Positions 15,903 to 29,560 of a DNA stretch of 64,000 bases are shown piece by piece. Source of the DNA: Armatimonadota bacterium (GTDB taxonomy: Bacteria > Armatimonadota > Zipacnadia > UBA1398 > JAKPQA01); contig JAKPQA010000100.1 in the NCBI GenBank assembly GCA_029547025.1, forward strand, positions 1-64,000, written 5' to 3'. The notes under the pieces were generated by a model, which was not told the origin of the DNA, searched no databases, and saw nothing but the letters and a program-made list of their open reading frames with translations. The position numbers were made by a program, and so were the translations under genes. The stretch's first letter is position 1. Each line of letters starts with the position of its first letter.

Positions 15903-16253
15903 TCACAGACACAACAGGATGCGCAGCCGGTCCTCCACCTGCGCCATCGTCGCGCGACCGACGGCGCCCAAGGGCTTCACCAGGCGCTCCGCCGAGATCG
16001 ACCGCACATCCTCGCACTTGGCGAAGCTGGGCTGCGCAAGCCCGCCCTCGGGCGGCTCAAGGCGGACATGGAGGTTGATGCCCCTGTCGCGCGTGGTCAG
16101 CGGAACGACGATGGCCAAGCCTGCCGCACCGCGGTTCAGCAGATCGGCCGAGACGACGAGCGCGGGACGCGTGCCTCCCTGCTCATGGCCCCGAACTGGG
16201 TCCAGCCGCACGAGCCAGACGTCGCCGCGTGACACGGCGGGCTGAGGGGTCAC
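15903..16253 (-). CDS. mazF: MazF/PemK-type endoribonuclease toxin
   Basis: The 116-residue protein matches the MazF/PemK fold: SRGDVWLVRLDPVRGHEQGGTRPALVVSAD at the N-terminus, then AIVVPLTTR and the terminal LGAVGRATMAQVEDRL. The toxin would cleave mRNA at short motifs. The GTG start overlaps the antitoxin stop as GTGA, the usual antitoxin-first arrangement. It appears intact. Confidence 0.9.
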   Translation of the reverse strand: MTPQPAVSRGDVWLVRLDPVRGHEQGGTRPALVVSADLLNRGAAGLAIVVPLTTRDRGINLHVRLEPPEGGLAQPSFAKCEDVRSISAERLVKPLGAVGRATMAQVEDRLRILLCL

Positions 16254-16513
16254 TCGTCCGACCCGCCTTCGTCATCGAGGCCGTCCCCCAGCGTGGCTTC
16301 CCATGCCTGGCGTTCCTCGAGCTCGTCGCGCCACTCCTCCGGGTTGGCCCGGAGAGCCGTAAAGCCAGCGTTCGCGTCCTCGAGGAACCGTTGCCGCCGG
16401 TAGCACTCGATGGCCTTCTCAAGGACCGTGCTCATGGAGTCGCCGCTCTGGTCCGCGAGCTCGCGAAGCACTTGCCGGGCCGACTCCGCCAACCGAACAG
16501 TCGTGCTTGCCAT
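16250..16513 (-). CDS. Ribbon-helix-helix antitoxin of the MazF pair
   Basis: The 87-residue protein begins MASTTVRLAESARQVL, an RHH-type DNA-binding beta strand and helix, followed by LADQSGDSMSTVLEKAIE and an acidic C-terminal tail rich in Glu/Asp that would bind the toxin. The ATG at 16513 has AGGAGG upstream; the longer upstream frame is a shadow. It probably represses its own promoter through the palindrome just upstream. Confidence 0.85.
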   Translation of the reverse strand: MASTTVRLAESARQVLRELADQSGDSMSTVLEKAIECYRRQRFLEDANAGFTALRANPEEWRDELEERQAWEATLGDGLDDEGGSDE

Positions 16514-16527
16514 GGCCCAGGCCTCCT

Positions 16528-16557
16528 GTCTACAGAACAGTATACACCGCCGTAGAC
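16528..16557. promoter_or_regulatory. Three-part symmetric palindrome, likely antitoxin operator
   Basis: GTCTAC (16528-16533), GTATAC (16540-16545) and GTAGAC (16552-16557) share one symmetry centre with 6-base spacers. On the minus strand, TATACT at 16538-16543 is a good -10 box for the toxin-antitoxin operon, about 25 bases upstream of the antitoxin ATG. Binding here would block that promoter and could affect the divergent plus-strand operon. Confidence 0.55.
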
Positions 16558-16676: not shown

Positions 16677-17462
16677 ATGACGGACGGGCGAGATGGCGCC
16701 CTCGAGAGCGCTCTGGCGGCTCTCGAGCGTGACGCCGATGCGACGGTTCGGACGGCTGCGGCCGCCGTGAAGGCCGCGAAGGCACTGCAGAAGGCGGCCA
16801 AGCTCGGCGAGCTGCGCCGGCTCGACGCGCTCCTCGCCGCCGCGGGCGCAGCGGCAACGGCCGTGAGTCAGCAGGTCGACAACACGATGGCCGGGTGGCA
16901 GTTCGACGCGGCGGAGCATCTGGCGAGCGGCGAGTTCGCCCACGAACTCATCGCGGCCGCGCGAGCGCAGGGCGTCGCCGTGGTCGAGCAGGACGGCATG
17001 CTCTATTGCTGCCCCAGCCTGGTTCGGGTCCTGCCCGGCGAGCTCAGTGTGCGGATCGACAAGACCCGTGAGACCCGCCTGAGGCCTACCGTACTTGCCG
17101 CGCACCTCAAGGGTGTTCAGCAGCGTCCACCCCGGTTCGCCTCCGAGGCCTTTCTCGACTCGCTGCACAGGGCGTACCGCCGCGTGGTCGAGCCGGCCCA
17201 CTTCGGCAGGGTGGTCAAGCTGCTTGAACTCTATGAACTACTCACATTGCTGCCCGGGCAGGCGCGCGAGTACACCAAGGCCGAGTTTGCGCGCGATGTC
17301 TACCTGCTCGACCGAAGCGGCTCGCTCACGACCCGCAACGGGGCCGTGGCTACCCTTCATGCGAGCACCGGGACCAAGTCGCCGAGCGCGGTGCTCCGAA
17401 CCATCACCGAGACCGGGGAGAAGCGCGAGTACTACGGCATCGCGTTCCGACCCGCGGACTAG
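16677..17462 (+). CDS. Helical protein opening the BrxD-like operon, unknown
   Basis: The 261-residue protein starts at an ATG behind a GGGGGG stretch, 163 bases from the divergent antitoxin gene. Residues 1-75 are Ala/Leu/Glu-rich and predicted helical or coiled-coil. The middle (AHELIAAARAQGVAVVEQDG) and C-terminal half (VVKLLELYELLTLLPGQ, EFARDVYLLDRSGSLTTRNG) look globular, possibly a winged helix. No family is recognised. It is followed after 28 bases by the first ATPase-like gene, so it is probably a dedicated partner of that system. Confidence 0.75.
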   Translation: MTDGRDGALESALAALERDADATVRTAAAAVKAAKALQKAAKLGELRRLDALLAAAGAAATAVSQQVDNTMAGWQFDAAEHLASGEFAHELIAAARAQGVAVVEQDGMLYCCPSLVRVLPGELSVRIDKTRETRLRPTVLAAHLKGVQQRPPRFASEAFLDSLHRAYRRVVEPAHFGRVVKLLELYELLTLLPGQAREYTKAEFARDVYLLDRSGSLTTRNGAVATLHASTGTKSPSAVLRTITETGEKREYYGIAFRPAD

Positions 17463-17490
17463 CGCAGCCCGTCCGTCCTGGAGGCATGCC

Positions 17491-18504
17491 ATGCAAACCA
17501 CCGATCCGCGCGCCGTGCGCCCCGAGGACTGGTTGGACGTCATGAAACGTGAGTACGTGAGCAGCTTCGTGCGCCATGGGGGAGCCGCTGTTAAGGTGGT
17601 CGTGCCCCGAGACGACGAGGACCGGCACTCGCTCATTGCGGGGCTCAGGTCCTCGGCCGAGGAGCACGGCTTCGCCTTTGCGTCGGTGGATGCGGCGACC
17701 ACGAAGCTCCACCTCGTGGATCGGCTGTTCCACGCGGTGGCTCGGCAGATGCCCTGGCACGCCCTGGCCAGCTCCCTGGTGCGGCGCCTGTTGGCGGCCA
17801 GCGGCCTCGAGGTGACGCCACAGGCCGACGGCGTCGACCTGGCCGAGGTCGCTCGCGTGAACGGGCGAGATGTCCGGTGGCTGGCGCAGGACGTCAAGAG
17901 GCAGCTCGAGCGCGAGCTTGTCGGCCATCCGGGCATGTGCCAGGAGTTCCGGTTCGCCATGATCGAGCTCTGCCTCGAGGCCATCGGCGAGGGGCAACTC
18001 CAGCCCGGCGTCGCCGAGCAGTGGCTCTGCGGCGAGCTCCGGCTGATCAGCGCCATGAAGCGTGCGCTGATCTTCTCGAAGATCCACCGCCACAACGCGC
18101 GGCATATGCTGCTCTCGCTCACGCAGTGGCTGCGGCTGGCCGGCCGATCGGGGCTCGTGCTCAGCCTGGACATCACCCAGTACACGGCCCGCCGTGCCGG
18201 CGCGGCGCAGGGCACGACGTTGTTCTACACGCGTCCCGCCATCATGGATGGGTACGAGGTCGTCCGGCAGCTCATCGACAGCACGGACGACGCCCTGGGT
18301 TGCTTGACCGTCGTGGTGGCCCCACCGGACTTCCTGAGCAATGAGAGCTGGGGCCTCGACGCCTACCGGGCCCTGAAGCTGCGCGTTATCGACGAGGTTC
18401 ACGACCGCTACAAGCCTAACCCGGTGTCCGCCCTGGTGCGGATCTCGCGCGAGGCACCGGCGCTGGGTCTGGCCGGGCAAGGGGGCGATCGGTGTGACGG
18501 CTGA
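17491..18504 (+). CDS. Degenerate BrxC/BrxD-type (DUF2791) ATPase-like protein
   Basis: The 337-residue protein follows CTGGAGG and an ATG. Its layout parallels DUF2791 P-loop proteins: a strand where Walker A should be (AAVKVVVPRDDEDRHS, residues about 30-45) with no GKS/GKT, FASVDAATTKLHLVDRLFHAV, then RHNARHMLLSLTQWLRLAG leading into a Walker-B-like strand GLVLSLDITQY near 222 where the catalytic Glu is replaced. Both nucleotide motifs are therefore lost while the fold seems kept. It overlaps the intact paralogue downstream by 11 bases. A regulatory or structural half of a hetero-oligomeric ATPase is likely (inference). Confidence 0.75.
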   Translation: MQTTDPRAVRPEDWLDVMKREYVSSFVRHGGAAVKVVVPRDDEDRHSLIAGLRSSAEEHGFAFASVDAATTKLHLVDRLFHAVARQMPWHALASSLVRRLLAASGLEVTPQADGVDLAEVARVNGRDVRWLAQDVKRQLERELVGHPGMCQEFRFAMIELCLEAIGEGQLQPGVAEQWLCGELRLISAMKRALIFSKIHRHNARHMLLSLTQWLRLAGRSGLVLSLDITQYTARRAGAAQGTTLFYTRPAIMDGYEVVRQLIDSTDDALGCLTVVVAPPDFLSNESWGLDAYRALKLRVIDEVHDRYKPNPVSALVRISREAPALGLAGQGGDRCDG

Positions 18505-19759
18505 GCAGCTCGAGAGCCGACGGGCCATCGAGGCCCTGCGCGCGGGCGTGCCCAACCGCGACGCCGTTCGCGCGCTGGGTTGCTCGCAGCCCGAGATCGA
18601 GGCCCGGTTCATCCAGTGCCTGAACGAGTGCCCAGAAGCAGCTGATCGGCATGAGCAGGCCCAAGGGCTGATGGTGGCGGCGGACTTCGGTGCGGGCAAG
18701 TCCCATCTGCTCGAGTACCTGCAGCACGTGGCTCTGGAGAGGAACTTCGTCGCCAGCAAGGTGGTGATCAGCAAGGAAACGCCGCTGTTCGACCCGGCCA
18801 AGCTCTTCCTGTCGGCCGTGGACAGTGCCCTTGCTCCCGGCAAGCGGGGCAACGCCGTGCGCGAGATCGCACAGACGCTGGACCAGTCGCCCGGCTTCAC
18901 CGCTTTCTATGACCAGGTCGTGAGCGATGGGGCGGGCCTCGACCGGCGTTTCGGCGCCTCGCTGTGCGTGTACGCCAATGCCCGCTCGACGGATCTCGAG
19001 TGGACCGACCGCGTCGTCTCTTTCTGGTGTGGCCGCAAGCTCAACGTCACCGAGGTCAACCGGGCGCTGAAGCAACTGGGCCAGGGCGGCCCGTGGCGTT
19101 TCGCGAAGATCCCGAACCGCGAGCTGGCCCTCCAGCGGTTCCGCTTCGCCGCCATGCTCATGCGCGCCGCCGGCTACGCGGGCTGGGTGCTCCTGCTGGA
19201 CGAGGTCGAGTTGATCGGGCGCTACTCCCTGCGCCAGCGGGCCAAGTCCTACGCCGAACTCGCCCGCTGGATGGGCGCGCTCAAGGCCGGGAGCACCTTC
19301 CCGGGCATCGTGTCAGTCCTGGCGATCACGCCGGACTTCGAGACGGCCATCCTCGACGAGAAGGGCGACTCGGACAACGTGCGGGCACGGCTGACAATGA
19401 CGGGCTCACCCGAAGAGCTCCTGGCCGTGGGCGAGGCCGAGGCCGGCATGCGCCAGATCCGCGCCGCGATCCGTCTCAGACAGCCCGATGGCGACCAGAT
19501 CAGCCGGGTGGTCGAGAGCCTCCGGCAGACCTACGAGCAGGCATATGGCTGGCGCCCACCGGAAGCCGACTGCATCCCGAAGCGGCCCGGCTCGACGCCG
19601 ATGCGGTCCTATGTCCGGCGCTGGGTGACCGAGTGGGACCTCGAGCGGCTGTTCCCGGCCTACGCGCCCGAGGTCGAGACGGCCGCCCTCGATCAGACGC
19701 TCGAGGAGGATCGCGACCTGGAGCGAGCCAGCGAGGCCAACCACTCAGACGATCCATAG
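18494..19759 (+). CDS. BrxD-like (DUF2791) P-loop ATPase
   Basis: The 421-residue protein starts at a GTG inside the previous gene behind GGGGGCG. The N-terminal LESRRAIEALRAGVPNRDAV is typical of the BREX ATP-binding family. Walker A is ADFGAGKSHLLEYL near 60-72, Walker B GWVLLLDEVELI near 230-240, and a helical C-terminal region follows, ending in an acidic tail (LEEDRDLERASEANH). In BREX type 2, BrxD accompanies PglX/Y/Z/W and a helicase; none of those is seen here besides a helicase. It likely forms a complex with the degenerate paralogue upstream. Confidence 0.85.
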   Translation: MTAEQLESRRAIEALRAGVPNRDAVRALGCSQPEIEARFIQCLNECPEAADRHEQAQGLMVAADFGAGKSHLLEYLQHVALERNFVASKVVISKETPLFDPAKLFLSAVDSALAPGKRGNAVREIAQTLDQSPGFTAFYDQVVSDGAGLDRRFGASLCVYANARSTDLEWTDRVVSFWCGRKLNVTEVNRALKQLGQGGPWRFAKIPNRELALQRFRFAAMLMRAAGYAGWVLLLDEVELIGRYSLRQRAKSYAELARWMGALKAGSTFPGIVSVLAITPDFETAILDEKGDSDNVRARLTMTGSPEELLAVGEAEAGMRQIRAAIRLRQPDGDQISRVVESLRQTYEQAYGWRPPEADCIPKRPGSTPMRSYVRRWVTEWDLERLFPAYAPEVETAALDQTLEEDRDLERASEANHSDDP

Positions 19760-19771
19760 GCGGCCGGCGCC

Positions 19772-21163
19772 ATGCCCGTTCCCCTCCGCGAGCTACCCGC
19801 GCCCGGCCAGCCGGGACACGTGCCTGCCCCCAGTCTGTTCCCGTTCCAGTTTGCCGGTGTACGGGCCCTCTATCACCGCGACTCGCTACTGCTGGCCGAC
19901 GACATGGGACTCGGGAAGACGGTACAGGCGTGTGTGGCGCTCCGGAGGCTAGTGACCGCCGGTCTCGTCGAGACGGCCCTTATCATCACCAAAGTGAGCC
20001 TGCTTCGCCAGTGGCGACGGGAGCTCCGCCGCTTCGCGCCCGAGCTCTACGTCTCGGTCGTCCACGGTACGGCTGAAGACCGGGCATGGCAGTGGGACGC
20101 TCCGGCCCATGCCTTCATCACCACCTATGAGACACTCCGCTCCGACTTCACCGAGAGCCCCAGGCACCGCGTCGGCCGTACCTGGGATCTGGTCATCCTC
20201 GATGAGGCACAGGCCATCAAGAACCGCGAGAGCCTGACCAGCGAGGTGTGCAAGCGGCTCCGTCGGCGCCGCGCGTGGGCGCTCACGGGCACGCCGCTCG
20301 AGAACGACGTCGACGATCTGGCCTCGGTGCTCGAGTTCGTGCGCCCCCTCCTGCCGGGCGAGCCCCAGCCGGACCTCCGGCCCGGAGAGGAGACGATCCG
20401 CCGACAGCGCGAAGTGCAGCTCCGAAGGCGGAAGGCCGACGTGCTGCCTGACCTGCCGCCCAAGATCGTGACGACGGTGCCCCTCGTGCTGGGACCCGAG
20501 CAGCGGCGGGCCTACGAGCGGGCCGAGCGCGAGGGCATCTTTGAGCTGCGCCAGTTGGAGGGGGAGCTCCGCATCGGGCATGTTTTCGAGCTGATCATGC
20601 GGCTGAAGCAGACCTGCAACTTCTGCCCCGTGACTGGTGAATCGGCTAAGCTCGAGGACCTGGCCGAGCGCGTGGCGACTCTGGCCGCCGAGGGTCACAA
20701 GGCTGTGGTGTTCTCTCAGTTCACCGACCAACGCTTCGGCTGCGGTGCACTCCGCGACGGGCTGGCCGATCTCGACCCACTGGTCTATACGGGCGCCATG
20801 GACGGGCCCGAACGTGACCGTGTCATCCGTCAGTTCACGACCGATGCGGCTCGCCCGCTGTTGATCGTGTCCCTCCGCGCCGGCGGCCTCGGACTCAATC
20901 TACAGGAGGCCTCCTATGTGTTCCACTTCGACCGCTGGTGGAACCCGGCCGTCGAACACCAGGCCGAGGACCGCGTGCATCGCGTGGGGCAAGCACTTCC
21001 GGTCCACATCTATCAGTACACGTGCGAGCGGACCATCGAGGAACGCATCGAGCAGATCCTGCTCGGTAAGCAGACGCTGTTCCAGGAGTACGTCGACGAC
21101 GTGACCCTCGACCTCTCTCAAGCGCTCACGCGCGAGGAGCTATTCGGGCTGTTCGGGATCTGA
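19772..21163 (+). CDS. SNF2-family DEAD/DEAH helicase
   Basis: The 463-residue, two-domain SF2 translocase has motif I LLADDMGLGKT near 44, motif II ILDEAQ near 142, motif III LTGTPLEN, and in the second lobe VVFSQFTDQ, SLRAGGLGLNLQEASYV and motif VI QAEDRVHRVGQ. It is a compact core without accessory DNA-binding or nuclease domains. It starts 12 bases after the BrxD-like ATPase, closing the four-gene operon. Probable role: DNA translocation or remodelling coupled to the ATPase pair. After its stop, only 3 bases separate it from a convergent gene remnant. Confidence 0.9.
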   Translation: MPVPLRELPAPGQPGHVPAPSLFPFQFAGVRALYHRDSLLLADDMGLGKTVQACVALRRLVTAGLVETALIITKVSLLRQWRRELRRFAPELYVSVVHGTAEDRAWQWDAPAHAFITTYETLRSDFTESPRHRVGRTWDLVILDEAQAIKNRESLTSEVCKRLRRRRAWALTGTPLENDVDDLASVLEFVRPLLPGEPQPDLRPGEETIRRQREVQLRRRKADVLPDLPPKIVTTVPLVLGPEQRRAYERAEREGIFELRQLEGELRIGHVFELIMRLKQTCNFCPVTGESAKLEDLAERVATLAAEGHKAVVFSQFTDQRFGCGALRDGLADLDPLVYTGAMDGPERDRVIRQFTTDAARPLLIVSLRAGGLGLNLQEASYVFHFDRWWNPAVEHQAEDRVHRVGQALPVHIYQYTCERTIEERIEQILLGKQTLFQEYVDDVTLDLSQALTREELFGLFGI

Positions 21164-21166
21164 GAC

Positions 21167-21544
21167 TCATGCCGCCAACGCCGCGAGTTTCCCCTCGTCG
21201 ATCTCGACACCCAGCCCAGGGCCCTCGGGCACGGCGATGGTTTCGTCGCCGACTGGCACGAGTGGGTGCGTGGCGATCGAATCGCCGAGGAACTGCGGGC
21301 CGTTCAGGGCGCACGGGTGCGTGATGCCGTAGGCGCCGAACAGGATCAGGCTGGCCGCCAGCGACAGATCGGGATCGGTGAGGCCGCTGCCGAGGACCAT
21401 GAGCCCCGCATCGCGCAGGATCTCGATCTGCCGCCGGGCCGAGTGCAGGCCGCCGCAGCGCGCCGGCTTCATGGCCACGCCGTCGAGCATGTCCAGCCGG
21501 ATGAACTCGATCAGGTCCTGCGGGGAGACGATGCCCTCGTCCAT
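21167..21544 (-). pseudogene. 3' remnant of an enolase-superfamily (MR/MLE) gene
   Basis: About 125 codons read as the C-terminal part of a mandelate racemase/muconate lactonising enzyme: DEGIVSPQDLIEFIRLDMLD, AMKPARCGGLHSARRQIEI, VLGSGLTDPDLSLAASLILFG, ending GPGLGVEIDEGKLAALAA. Family members are about 350-400 residues. Only about 70 bases remain before the next gene, so the capping domain and most barrel strands are missing. It abuts the SNF2 gene, as expected if an insertion or deletion at the island edge removed the 5' two-thirds. Confidence 0.7.
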
Positions 21545-27745: not shown

Positions 27746-27856
27746 GGCGTCGGACGGATGGCCGAAGGACCGCGGGCTCCGCGAGACTCGTTCTGCGCTG
27801 CCCAGCACTGGAACACTGTCATCTGGCTGCATTTGCTCCGCAACGGTGGGCTCGCA

Positions 27857-28510
27857 ATGCCGACGAGTACTCCTGCTAACCCACGGGTCTACCGCATCAC
27901 GCACATCGACAACCTGGACACGCTCCTGCGCCGAGGTGGGCTACACGCCCCCAACTACGTGCCTCCGGATGGTCTGCCTTACCGCCCGATCCACCGGCAG
28001 GACATACAGGAGGCCCGGATGGCCCGGCCGGTCAAGGTCGGACCGGGGGGCGTACTGCTCGACTACATTCCATTCTTCTTCGGACGACGCCCTCCGATGT
28101 TGCTGCAGCTCCACACTGGCCAGGTGAAGGGGTACAAGGAAGGGCAGGGGCCTCTGGTCTACCTGGTATCCAGGATCCACCGCATCGTATCGAATGGTTG
28201 TCGCTTTATCTTCACTGATGGGCATGCCCTGGCCAGATTCACGCACTGGTTCGATGAGCTTGCAGATCTGGCTGCCGTCGACTGGGATGCCGTTCAGGCC
28301 AGCCATTGGGCCGACACCCCCGACGACAATGACCGTCAGCGGCGCAAGCAAGCAGAGTTTCTTGTTCACGAGTTTCTGCCGTGGGACTTGGTCGACGGGA
28401 TCGCTGTCTGCGGCGAGGGGGTCCGGGAGCGGGTGCGGAACATACTTGCCGTGCACCAGGACAGGCACCGTCCTCAGGTTAAGGTGGTTCGTAGCTGGTA
28501 CTATGACTGA
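27857..28510 (+). CDS. darT: DarT-like DNA ADP-ribosyltransferase toxin (DUF4433)
   Basis: The 217-residue protein matches DarT: YRITHIDNLDTLLRRGG at the N-terminus (NAD-binding His and Asn region), PYRPIHRQDIQEARMARPV with the conserved Arg, LDYIPFFFGRRPPML, and QAEFLVHEFLPWDLV near 165 carrying the catalytic Glu. The family transfers ADP-ribose to single-stranded DNA thymidines. It is followed after 12 bases by its antitoxin gene. The ATG at 27857 begins the conserved part, behind a weak GGTGGG. Confidence 0.9.
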   Translation: MPTSTPANPRVYRITHIDNLDTLLRRGGLHAPNYVPPDGLPYRPIHRQDIQEARMARPVKVGPGGVLLDYIPFFFGRRPPMLLQLHTGQVKGYKEGQGPLVYLVSRIHRIVSNGCRFIFTDGHALARFTHWFDELADLAAVDWDAVQASHWADTPDDNDRQRRKQAEFLVHEFLPWDLVDGIAVCGEGVRERVRNILAVHQDRHRPQVKVVRSWYYD

Positions 28511-28522
28511 GGGGGCTCTGCC

Positions 28523-29560
28523 ATGATCGAGGAGGCGCGGGGCAATCTGCTGCAGGCAGACGTCGAAGCCCTGGTCAATACTGTCAACTGTGTCGGGTAC
28601 ATGGGCAGGGGTATCGCCCTGCAGTTCCGCCAAGCGTTTCCCGCGAACTACGAGGCCTACGTCAAGGCATGCCGCGCCGGTGAAGTCCAACCAGGACGGG
28701 TGTTGGTGTATGAGACAGACGCACTCATGGGGCCCCGCTACATCATTAACGTGCCAACTAAGCGCCACTGGCGCGGGAGGTCTCGCTACGACGATGTCGA
28801 GGCTGGACTAAGCGCGCTGGCGCAGGTGGTCCGTGAGCGCGGCATCCGCTCGGTTGCCGTGCCGCCCCTGGGGTGCGGCCTAGGTGGCCTCGACTGGAGA
28901 CGCGTCCGGTCGATGATACAGCGCGCATTCGCCGAGCTCCCGGAGGTACGCGTTCTGCTCTACACACCATCGGGCACCCCCGAACCACAGGCCAGACCGA
29001 TTCATACGCCTCGGCCCACGATGACACGGAGCAATGCCGTCGTGATCCGTCTCATGGAGATCTACGGCCGCATGGACTACCGCCTGACGCTACTCGAGGT
29101 CCAGAAGCTCGCTTACTTCGCACAGGAGGCCGGGGAACCGCTCCGCCTGCGCTATGAGCAGGGCCCCTATGGCCCATACGCTGATAATCTGAACCAAGTC
29201 CTTCTGGCCATGGAAAGCCATTACACCCAGGGCTACACCGGAGGGCGGAAGCCCGACGAGGAGATCGCTTTGGTCGAGGGAGCAGCCGATGGGGCCGCCG
29301 CGTGCCTGGCGAAGAAGCGCCAGACGCTTCAGCGCCTGGATCGCGTCGCTGCGCTGGTCGACGGTTTCGAGACTCCCTATGGGATGGAGCTACTATCCTC
29401 GGTCCACTGGGTCGCCAAGACCCCGCTGAAGGAGCAGCTCACGGCCGATGACGTCGTGGGCCGCGTTCACGCGTGGAACACGCGCAAGCGCAGGCTCCTG
29501 CGGCAGGATCATATCCACATCGCGTGGGAGCACTTGAGGGCCAACGGCTGGATTACCTAG
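28523..29560 (+). CDS. darG: DarG macrodomain antitoxin
   Basis: The 345-residue protein has an N-terminal macrodomain (residues 1-155: EARGNLLQADVEALVNTVNCVG, MGRGIALQF, VAVPPLGCGLGGLDW) that would remove ADP-ribose from DNA. A C-terminal DarT-binding region (about 170-345: VQKLAYFAQEAGEPLRLRYE, SSVHWVAK) follows. Full-length and intact. Its last 168 bases overlap the 3' end of the large convergent minus-strand gene. Confidence 0.92.
   Translation: MIEEARGNLLQADVEALVNTVNCVGYMGRGIALQFRQAFPANYEAYVKACRAGEVQPGRVLVYETDALMGPRYIINVPTKRHWRGRSRYDDVEAGLSALAQVVRERGIRSVAVPPLGCGLGGLDWRRVRSMIQRAFAELPEVRVLLYTPSGTPEPQARPIHTPRPTMTRSNAVVIRLMEIYGRMDYRLTLLEVQKLAYFAQEAGEPLRLRYEQGPYGPYADNLNQVLLAMESHYTQGYTGGRKPDEEIALVEGAADGAAACLAKKRQTLQRLDRVAALVDGFETPYGMELLSSVHWVAKTPLKEQLTADDVVGRVHAWNTRKRRLLRQDHIHIAWEHLRANGWIT

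Follow-up and report, generated by a model that had tools for sequence, protein, structure and literature searches.

BrxD, an ORC-Cdc6 AAA+ ATPase of BREX systems, has been proposed to be the loader of BrxHI (PMC12839542). The type-1 BR systems, which are related to BREX and centered on DUF499, contain a Swi2/Snf2 helicase with a C-terminal REase (PMC12839542), and Shango is a tested antiphage system (PMC10250203). We analyzed a 64-kb stretch of DNA, referred to here as the window, that contains a four-gene operon with features of these systems and of Zorya. Judged by the sequence criteria tested, this operon is none of BREX, Shango, and Zorya, and its first three genes, P1 to P3 (the triad), recur together in many other genomes.

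Operon layout and relation to described systems

The four genes occupy positions 16677-21163 on one strand and are separated by 28 (P1-P2), -11 (P2-P3, an overlap), and 12 (P3-P4) bases; the coordinates and strand of this layout, proposed in an initial annotation, were reconfirmed. The adjoining toxin-antitoxin pair and broken gene that it had also reported are both real, namely, MazF with its partner and a truncated enolase-like gene. The features of the locus are as follows:

15903-16555, minus strand: MazF/PemK-type toxin (PF02452, E 3.6e-29) with a small upstream partner
16677-17462, plus strand: P1, 261 amino acids, first gene of the triad
17491-18504, plus strand: P2, predicted BrxD-superfamily (ORC/Cdc6-like AAA+) pseudo-ATPase lacking Walker A
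18494-19759, plus strand: P3, predicted BrxD-superfamily AAA+ ATPase with intact Walker A and B
19772-21163, plus strand: P4, bare 463-amino-acid SNF2 motor without a nuclease domain
19772-19792, plus strand: putative remnant of the 5' end of gene X (MPVPLRE; MPIPFRD in the nearest X, that of locus L052)
21167-21544, minus strand: truncated enolase-superfamily gene, C-terminal part only, downstream of SNF2
27758-29560, plus strand: complete DarT-DarG toxin-antitoxin pair (NCBIfam, 228.6 bits for DarT and 444 bits for DarG, both above the cutoff)

The MazF pair is located upstream of and divergent from the operon, and its small partner has weak ribbon-helix-helix similarity. At the other end, the stop codons of the truncated enolase-like gene and of SNF2 are 3 bases apart, and this truncated gene may mark an integration or deletion edge. 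DarT-DarG, a DNA ADP-ribosyltransferase and its hydrolase, lies 6.6 kb downstream of the operon. A consensus search retrieved no promoter or terminator for the operon.

Both P2 (37.4 bits, E 1.9e-9) and P3 (72.3 bits, E 4.9e-20) exceed the Pfam gathering cutoff of 22.2 bits for BrxC_BrxD (PF10923), in agreement with their annotation as two DUF2791-type ATPases. The one called intact is P3, which has retained the Walker A motif ADFGAGKSH and the Walker B motif LLLDEVE, whereas P2 lacks Walker A. The statement that the intact ATPase matches BrxD holds for the superfamily but not for the equivalog, since P3 scored only 61.8 bits (P2, 38.4 bits) with the BrxD equivalog model, far below its cutoff of 350. 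P4 had been called an SNF2 helicase, and it can indeed be assigned to the SNF2 family by its domains (SNF2-rel_dom PF00176, E 1.6e-44; Helicase_C PF00271, E 1.2e-17) and by its motifs LLADDMGLGKT, DEAQ, LTGTPLEN, SLRAGGLGLNLQ, and AEDRVHRVGQ, all of which are intact. For P1, Pfam and PADLOC gave no family and NCBIfam no meaningful match. Its AlphaFold2 model (pLDDT 95, pTM 0.85) contains a long N-terminal helical hairpin (residues 9 to 73), so that its description as a helical protein applies to this part, but the C-terminal half is confidently modeled as alpha/beta. Assignment of P1 to a known DNA-binding fold was rejected, as no match at E <= 0.001 was found in the PDB or in a viral structure library.

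Four comparisons define the position of the operon. (i) Like the BrxD-BrxHI dyad of BREX type 2, the operon links an ORC/Cdc6-like ATPase to an SF2 helicase, but its motor is SNF2 and that of BREX is Ski2-like. PglZ (PF08665) was not found in the whole genome of the window, with control genomes being positive; PF10923 matched this genome only at the P2/P3 locus, and the best match to the BrxX/PglX methylase (type 1 model) reached 28.8 bits on another contig, relative to a cutoff of 500. BREX was rejected for want of PglZ, of any other BrxC/D, and of a BrxD score above the cutoff, in agreement with the initial view that this is no known BREX type. (ii) Shango, composed of the TerB protein SngA, the ATPase SngB, and the DEAD/DEAH helicase SngC, likewise combines a BrxD-superfamily ATPase and an SF2 helicase in a short operon. 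Unlike Shango, the triad has two ATPases, one of which is predicted to be dead; an SNF2 protein takes the place of the DEAD/DEAH motor, and P1, for which Pfam gave no match at all, has no TerB domain. No TerB_C was detected in the genome of the window, with a control that was positive in one genome only and below the cutoff, and SngC is not among the best 25 of the 43 PADLOC matches of P4. Shango was rejected because TerB is missing and because true SngABC genes stand beside the triad as separate genes elsewhere. (iii) Among the PADLOC models, P4 scored highest with ZorD of Zorya (238.8 bits), and, as in ZorD and other SNF2-nuclease proteins, the SNF2 motor of full relatives carries a C-terminal Mrr-like nuclease. 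However, P4 scored 153 bits with the ZorD equivalog model (cutoff of 1500), the partner genes of the triad are unrelated, and the window copy has no nuclease; in PADLOC, no operon gene matched ZorA, ZorB, or ZorC, and P1 to P3 had no Zor match. (iv) The DUF499-centered BR systems resemble full triad relatives in their SNF2-type helicase with a C-terminal nuclease but differ from the triad operon, which has no DUF499 match or methylase (Pfam) and possesses P1-P2-P3 and X.

The conserved triad and its exchangeable partners

We compiled 98 P3-bearing loci, duplicates removed and window included, in which P1 was counted when present on the same strand within 4.5 kb. P1, P2, and P3 occurred together on the same strand in 91 of them, and four of the seven exceptions are at contig ends. 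The labels in the tree of these loci span about 12 phyla; nearly all relatives are metagenome assemblies. Their genes were predicted with a simple ORF caller, so that the starts of some are approximate. When one genome per species was scanned, 165 P3 relatives were obtained, of which 80, biased to those nearest the window, were fetched. In a search of 291 genomes of the window's phylum, 23 contained P3, 22 contained P2, and 20 contained P1, these being largely the same genomes, and the triad is absent from the 40 nearest relatives of the window genome. Viral contigs and plasmids gave no match, and phage or plasmid carriage of the triad was accordingly rejected.

The triad is a real conserved unit, its gene order recurring far beyond chance, and the window copy has the same composition: P1, P2 without Walker A, and P3 with Walker A, adjacent on one strand. 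Homologues are neither always part of a BREX or TerB cluster nor scattered. The proposal that the four genes form a unit needs revision: a conserved stand-alone unit exists, but its core is the triad, and the fourth partner is interchangeable. We found no description of a P1-P2-P3 operon in the open-access literature, and the triad is absent as a unit from Pfam, NCBIfam (2026), and PADLOC (2023); if it is a defense system, it is one that these three collections do not hold as such.

The different states of the two ATPases are conserved. The columns F-G-x-GK-x-H and D-E-x-E of P3 are invariant in 16 aligned sequences, and Walker A is present in 90 of the 98 P3 domains as well as in the second half of the fused P2-P3 proteins inspected. 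Of 96 P2 relatives, only 2 contain the pattern GxGK[ST], and the match in L048, one of the two, is spurious. The median gap between P2 and P3 in the 98-locus set is -4 bases, and in Nitrospirota, Nitrospinota, and CSSED10-310 both are fused in frame into a single protein, which argues that P2 and P3 act together. In two loci, P3 is split into two reading-frame pieces (L048:9316-10573 and L049:3149-4499), which may correspond to a frameshift, programmed or not, or to an assembly error. Two Nitrospira relatives (L082:2498-11111 and L087:8024-16582) contain P1 and two tandem fused P2-P3 genes, followed by a histidine kinase and a response regulator.

The genes next to the triad vary. A PbeA-like SF2 helicase follows it in some Actinomycetota and in one proteobacterial assembly (L090, L098 to L101, and L120, with L098 being the member scanned), a DUF3670-SNF2 protein follows it in Micromonospora sicca, and the alternative partners include XPB-like or PbeA-like helicases. 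In Nitrospirota and Nitrospinota, triads adjoin histidine kinases and response regulators. In two actinomycetes, Phytohabitans suffuscus and one actinobacterial MAG, Shango SngA-SngB-SngC and the triad stand back to back in divergent orientation (L124:2226-11206 and L128:2449-11215). The SngB of L124 is genuine, as it scored 564.8 bits with the SngB model, compared to 28.5 bits for P3. In about 42 loci, neither SNF2 nor X is linked to the triad, and an evident adjacent motor is missing from some of them, including many in Acidobacteriota. Since the triad is found next to swapped partners, it is the conserved object, and SNF2 is one of several effectors.

Gene X, SNF2-Mrr proteins, and the reduced copy

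Downstream of the triad, 44 of the 98 loci contain a gene termed X (about 185 amino acids) and then an SNF2 gene, and in 22 of these 44 the SNF2 protein carries a C-terminal Mrr_cat nuclease domain (E about 1e-24 to 1e-26). The gene content initially noted thus lacked a fifth gene and a longer SNF2 that most SNF2-bearing relatives have. Of the 22 SNF2-Mrr proteins, 17 contain the strict motif DGG[IV]D...[QE]xK, some of the rest being one residue off, and the Mrr domain looks degenerate in at least two, L036 and L105. In one triad operon (L040:10211-14904), the gene immediately after SNF2-Mrr encodes a Cas3-like helicase.

X could not be assigned to a family in Pfam or NCBIfam. The structure predicted for it (pLDDT 88) is similar to EndoV and Argonaute PIWI domains (best E 8.8e-6, probability 1.00), and X may accordingly be described as an EndoV/PIWI-like protein of predicted RNase H fold. 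X lacks a nearly invariant aspartate, from which we infer that it binds nucleic acid rather than cuts it. The possibility that X is a true endonuclease V was rejected at the sequence level, given that there was no Pfam match and that weak genome matches were X-like paralogues and not EndoV. All 14 strong X matches in the window's phylum are in triad genomes. Stand-alone X-like proteins of about 213 to 242 amino acids, also without a Pfam match (L153:324-968, L154:220-948, L155:239-883, and L156:250-891), are encoded separately from the triad, at the level of the genome or of the contig, and point to a larger RNase H-fold family.

The window copy has no X, SNF2 N terminus, or Mrr, whereas sister loci L032 and L052, the P3 proteins of which are 56 to 59% identical to that of the window, have all three. 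In the SNF2 tree, P4 is the sister of the full-length SNF2-Mrr proteins of these two loci (98/98 support). Nothing above noise resembling X remnants, Mrr, or the SNF2 N terminus was detected elsewhere in the window. X was not found anywhere in the genome, and one Mrr_cat gene is located on another contig (C145). The start of P4, MPVPLRE, matches the X start codon by codon in L052 (MPIPFRD) and also in L032, and the SNF2 core follows directly, which points to an in-frame X-SNF2 fusion. The X-start pattern fits 1 of the 674 ORF starts in the window. On the basis of some seven codons, the simplest reading is that a deletion likely joined the 5' end of X in frame to the SNF2 core.

According to the SNF2 tree, the minimal form arose independently in L093, in L097, and in the L085/L114 pair, which argues that a nuclease-free minimal form is viable. 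At least three lineages besides that of the window, these included, have thus lost X independently, and L093 and L097 retain X-like residues near the SNF2 start.

Possible mode of action and alternatives

We propose, with even rather than firm confidence, that an ORC/Cdc6-like ATPase pair and an adaptor load an interchangeable SF2 motor onto foreign DNA. P2 and P3 would assemble into an ORC/Cdc6-like AAA+ heteromer, with P3 binding and hydrolyzing ATP and P2 as the catalytically dead partner. P1, the adaptor, would read a signal or DNA and dock this pair. Upon recognition of foreign or aberrant DNA, the presumed substrate, the pair would load or license the motor in the manner of replicative helicase loaders. 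In full systems, the motor would be SNF2 together with X, the nucleic-acid-binding RNase H-fold protein, often with a C-terminal Mrr that cuts; in the window, the bare SNF2 might translocate and strip or stall DNA or might use a nuclease supplied elsewhere. The combination of an active with a dead AAA+ subunit, together with an adaptor and a motor, would fit a loader. The window operon probably represents a reduced form of a hitherto undescribed DNA-interference module, the patchy distribution of which probably reflects horizontal spread. Somewhat more tentatively, the triad may be a phylum-spanning interference platform, in which the ATPase/pseudo-ATPase pair and a protein of unmatched fold serve as a universal loader for swapped motors and effectors, and nuclease-free minimal forms evolved repeatedly. 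The swapped components would be SNF2, SNF2-Mrr with the PIWI/EndoV-like protein, DUF3670-SNF2, and the PbeA-like helicase.

To our knowledge, BrxD and SngB are ATPases of known defense systems whose role is uncharacterized. An ATPase of this kind that occurs outside BREX and Shango, as two subunits of which one is active and the other dead, and that is combined with interchangeable motors makes the loader idea directly testable in a small operon. The association of a BrxD-superfamily ATPase with an SF2 motor is known; new are the two uncharacterized families P1 and X and the split into active and dead ATPases, and X may represent an RNase H-fold (EndoV/PIWI-like) partner for SNF2-Mrr nucleases.

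A role of the module against invaders is indirectly suggested by its patchy presence, the Mrr nuclease, and the neighboring Shango and Cas3 genes. The 104 flank genes compared gave matches to Sng, Cas3, mad2/mad3, PDC-S01, and MTase, and the 74 control genes, from one phylum, gave matches to CARF/Csx1 and PDC-S05; these tallies are not per gene and at most hint at an enrichment of defense genes in the flanks. The histidine kinases that adjoin the Nitrospirota and Nitrospinota copies, the lack of viral or plasmid carriage, and the nuclease-free window copy with its long SNF2 branch count against the loader and defense reading, and a strict loader model does not explain the loci without an evident motor.

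It appears unlikely that the AAA+ pair loads SF2 helicases for chromosomal maintenance, i.e., replication restart, repair, or transcription-coupled processing, rather than for immunity. The best PDB matches of the P3 profile, helicase loaders and DnaA, would be in line with such a function, although they are weak (E 0.03 and above), as would the XPB-like or PbeA-like partners and the missing linked nuclease in some lineages; however, a patchy presence in 20 to 23 of 291 genomes of the phylum and absence from the closest relatives, together with the Mrr restriction domain, effector exchange, and the Shango genes adjoining in two genomes, argue against it. More doubtful still is that the window copy is a decaying, nonworking remnant left after loss of X, the SNF2 N terminus, and the nuclease, all present in both sister loci. 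With a length of 0.77, the branch leading to the window's SNF2 is about threefold longer than the sister branches (0.23 and 0.21), which could mean relaxed constraint, and the adjoining enolase-like gene is truncated, but the four reading frames are open with intact catalytic motifs, and the same reduction occurred independently in the lineages named above. As all motor motifs checked are intact, a working minimal form seems likelier than decay, the long branch notwithstanding. A BREX or Shango derivative stripped of its other genes, as the common BrxD/SngB superfamily and helicase partner could suggest, is very improbable in view of the genuine SngB encoded separately beside the triad, the lack of TerB in P1 and of PglZ in the genome, and the conservation of the triad's own P1 and P2 over about 12 phyla.
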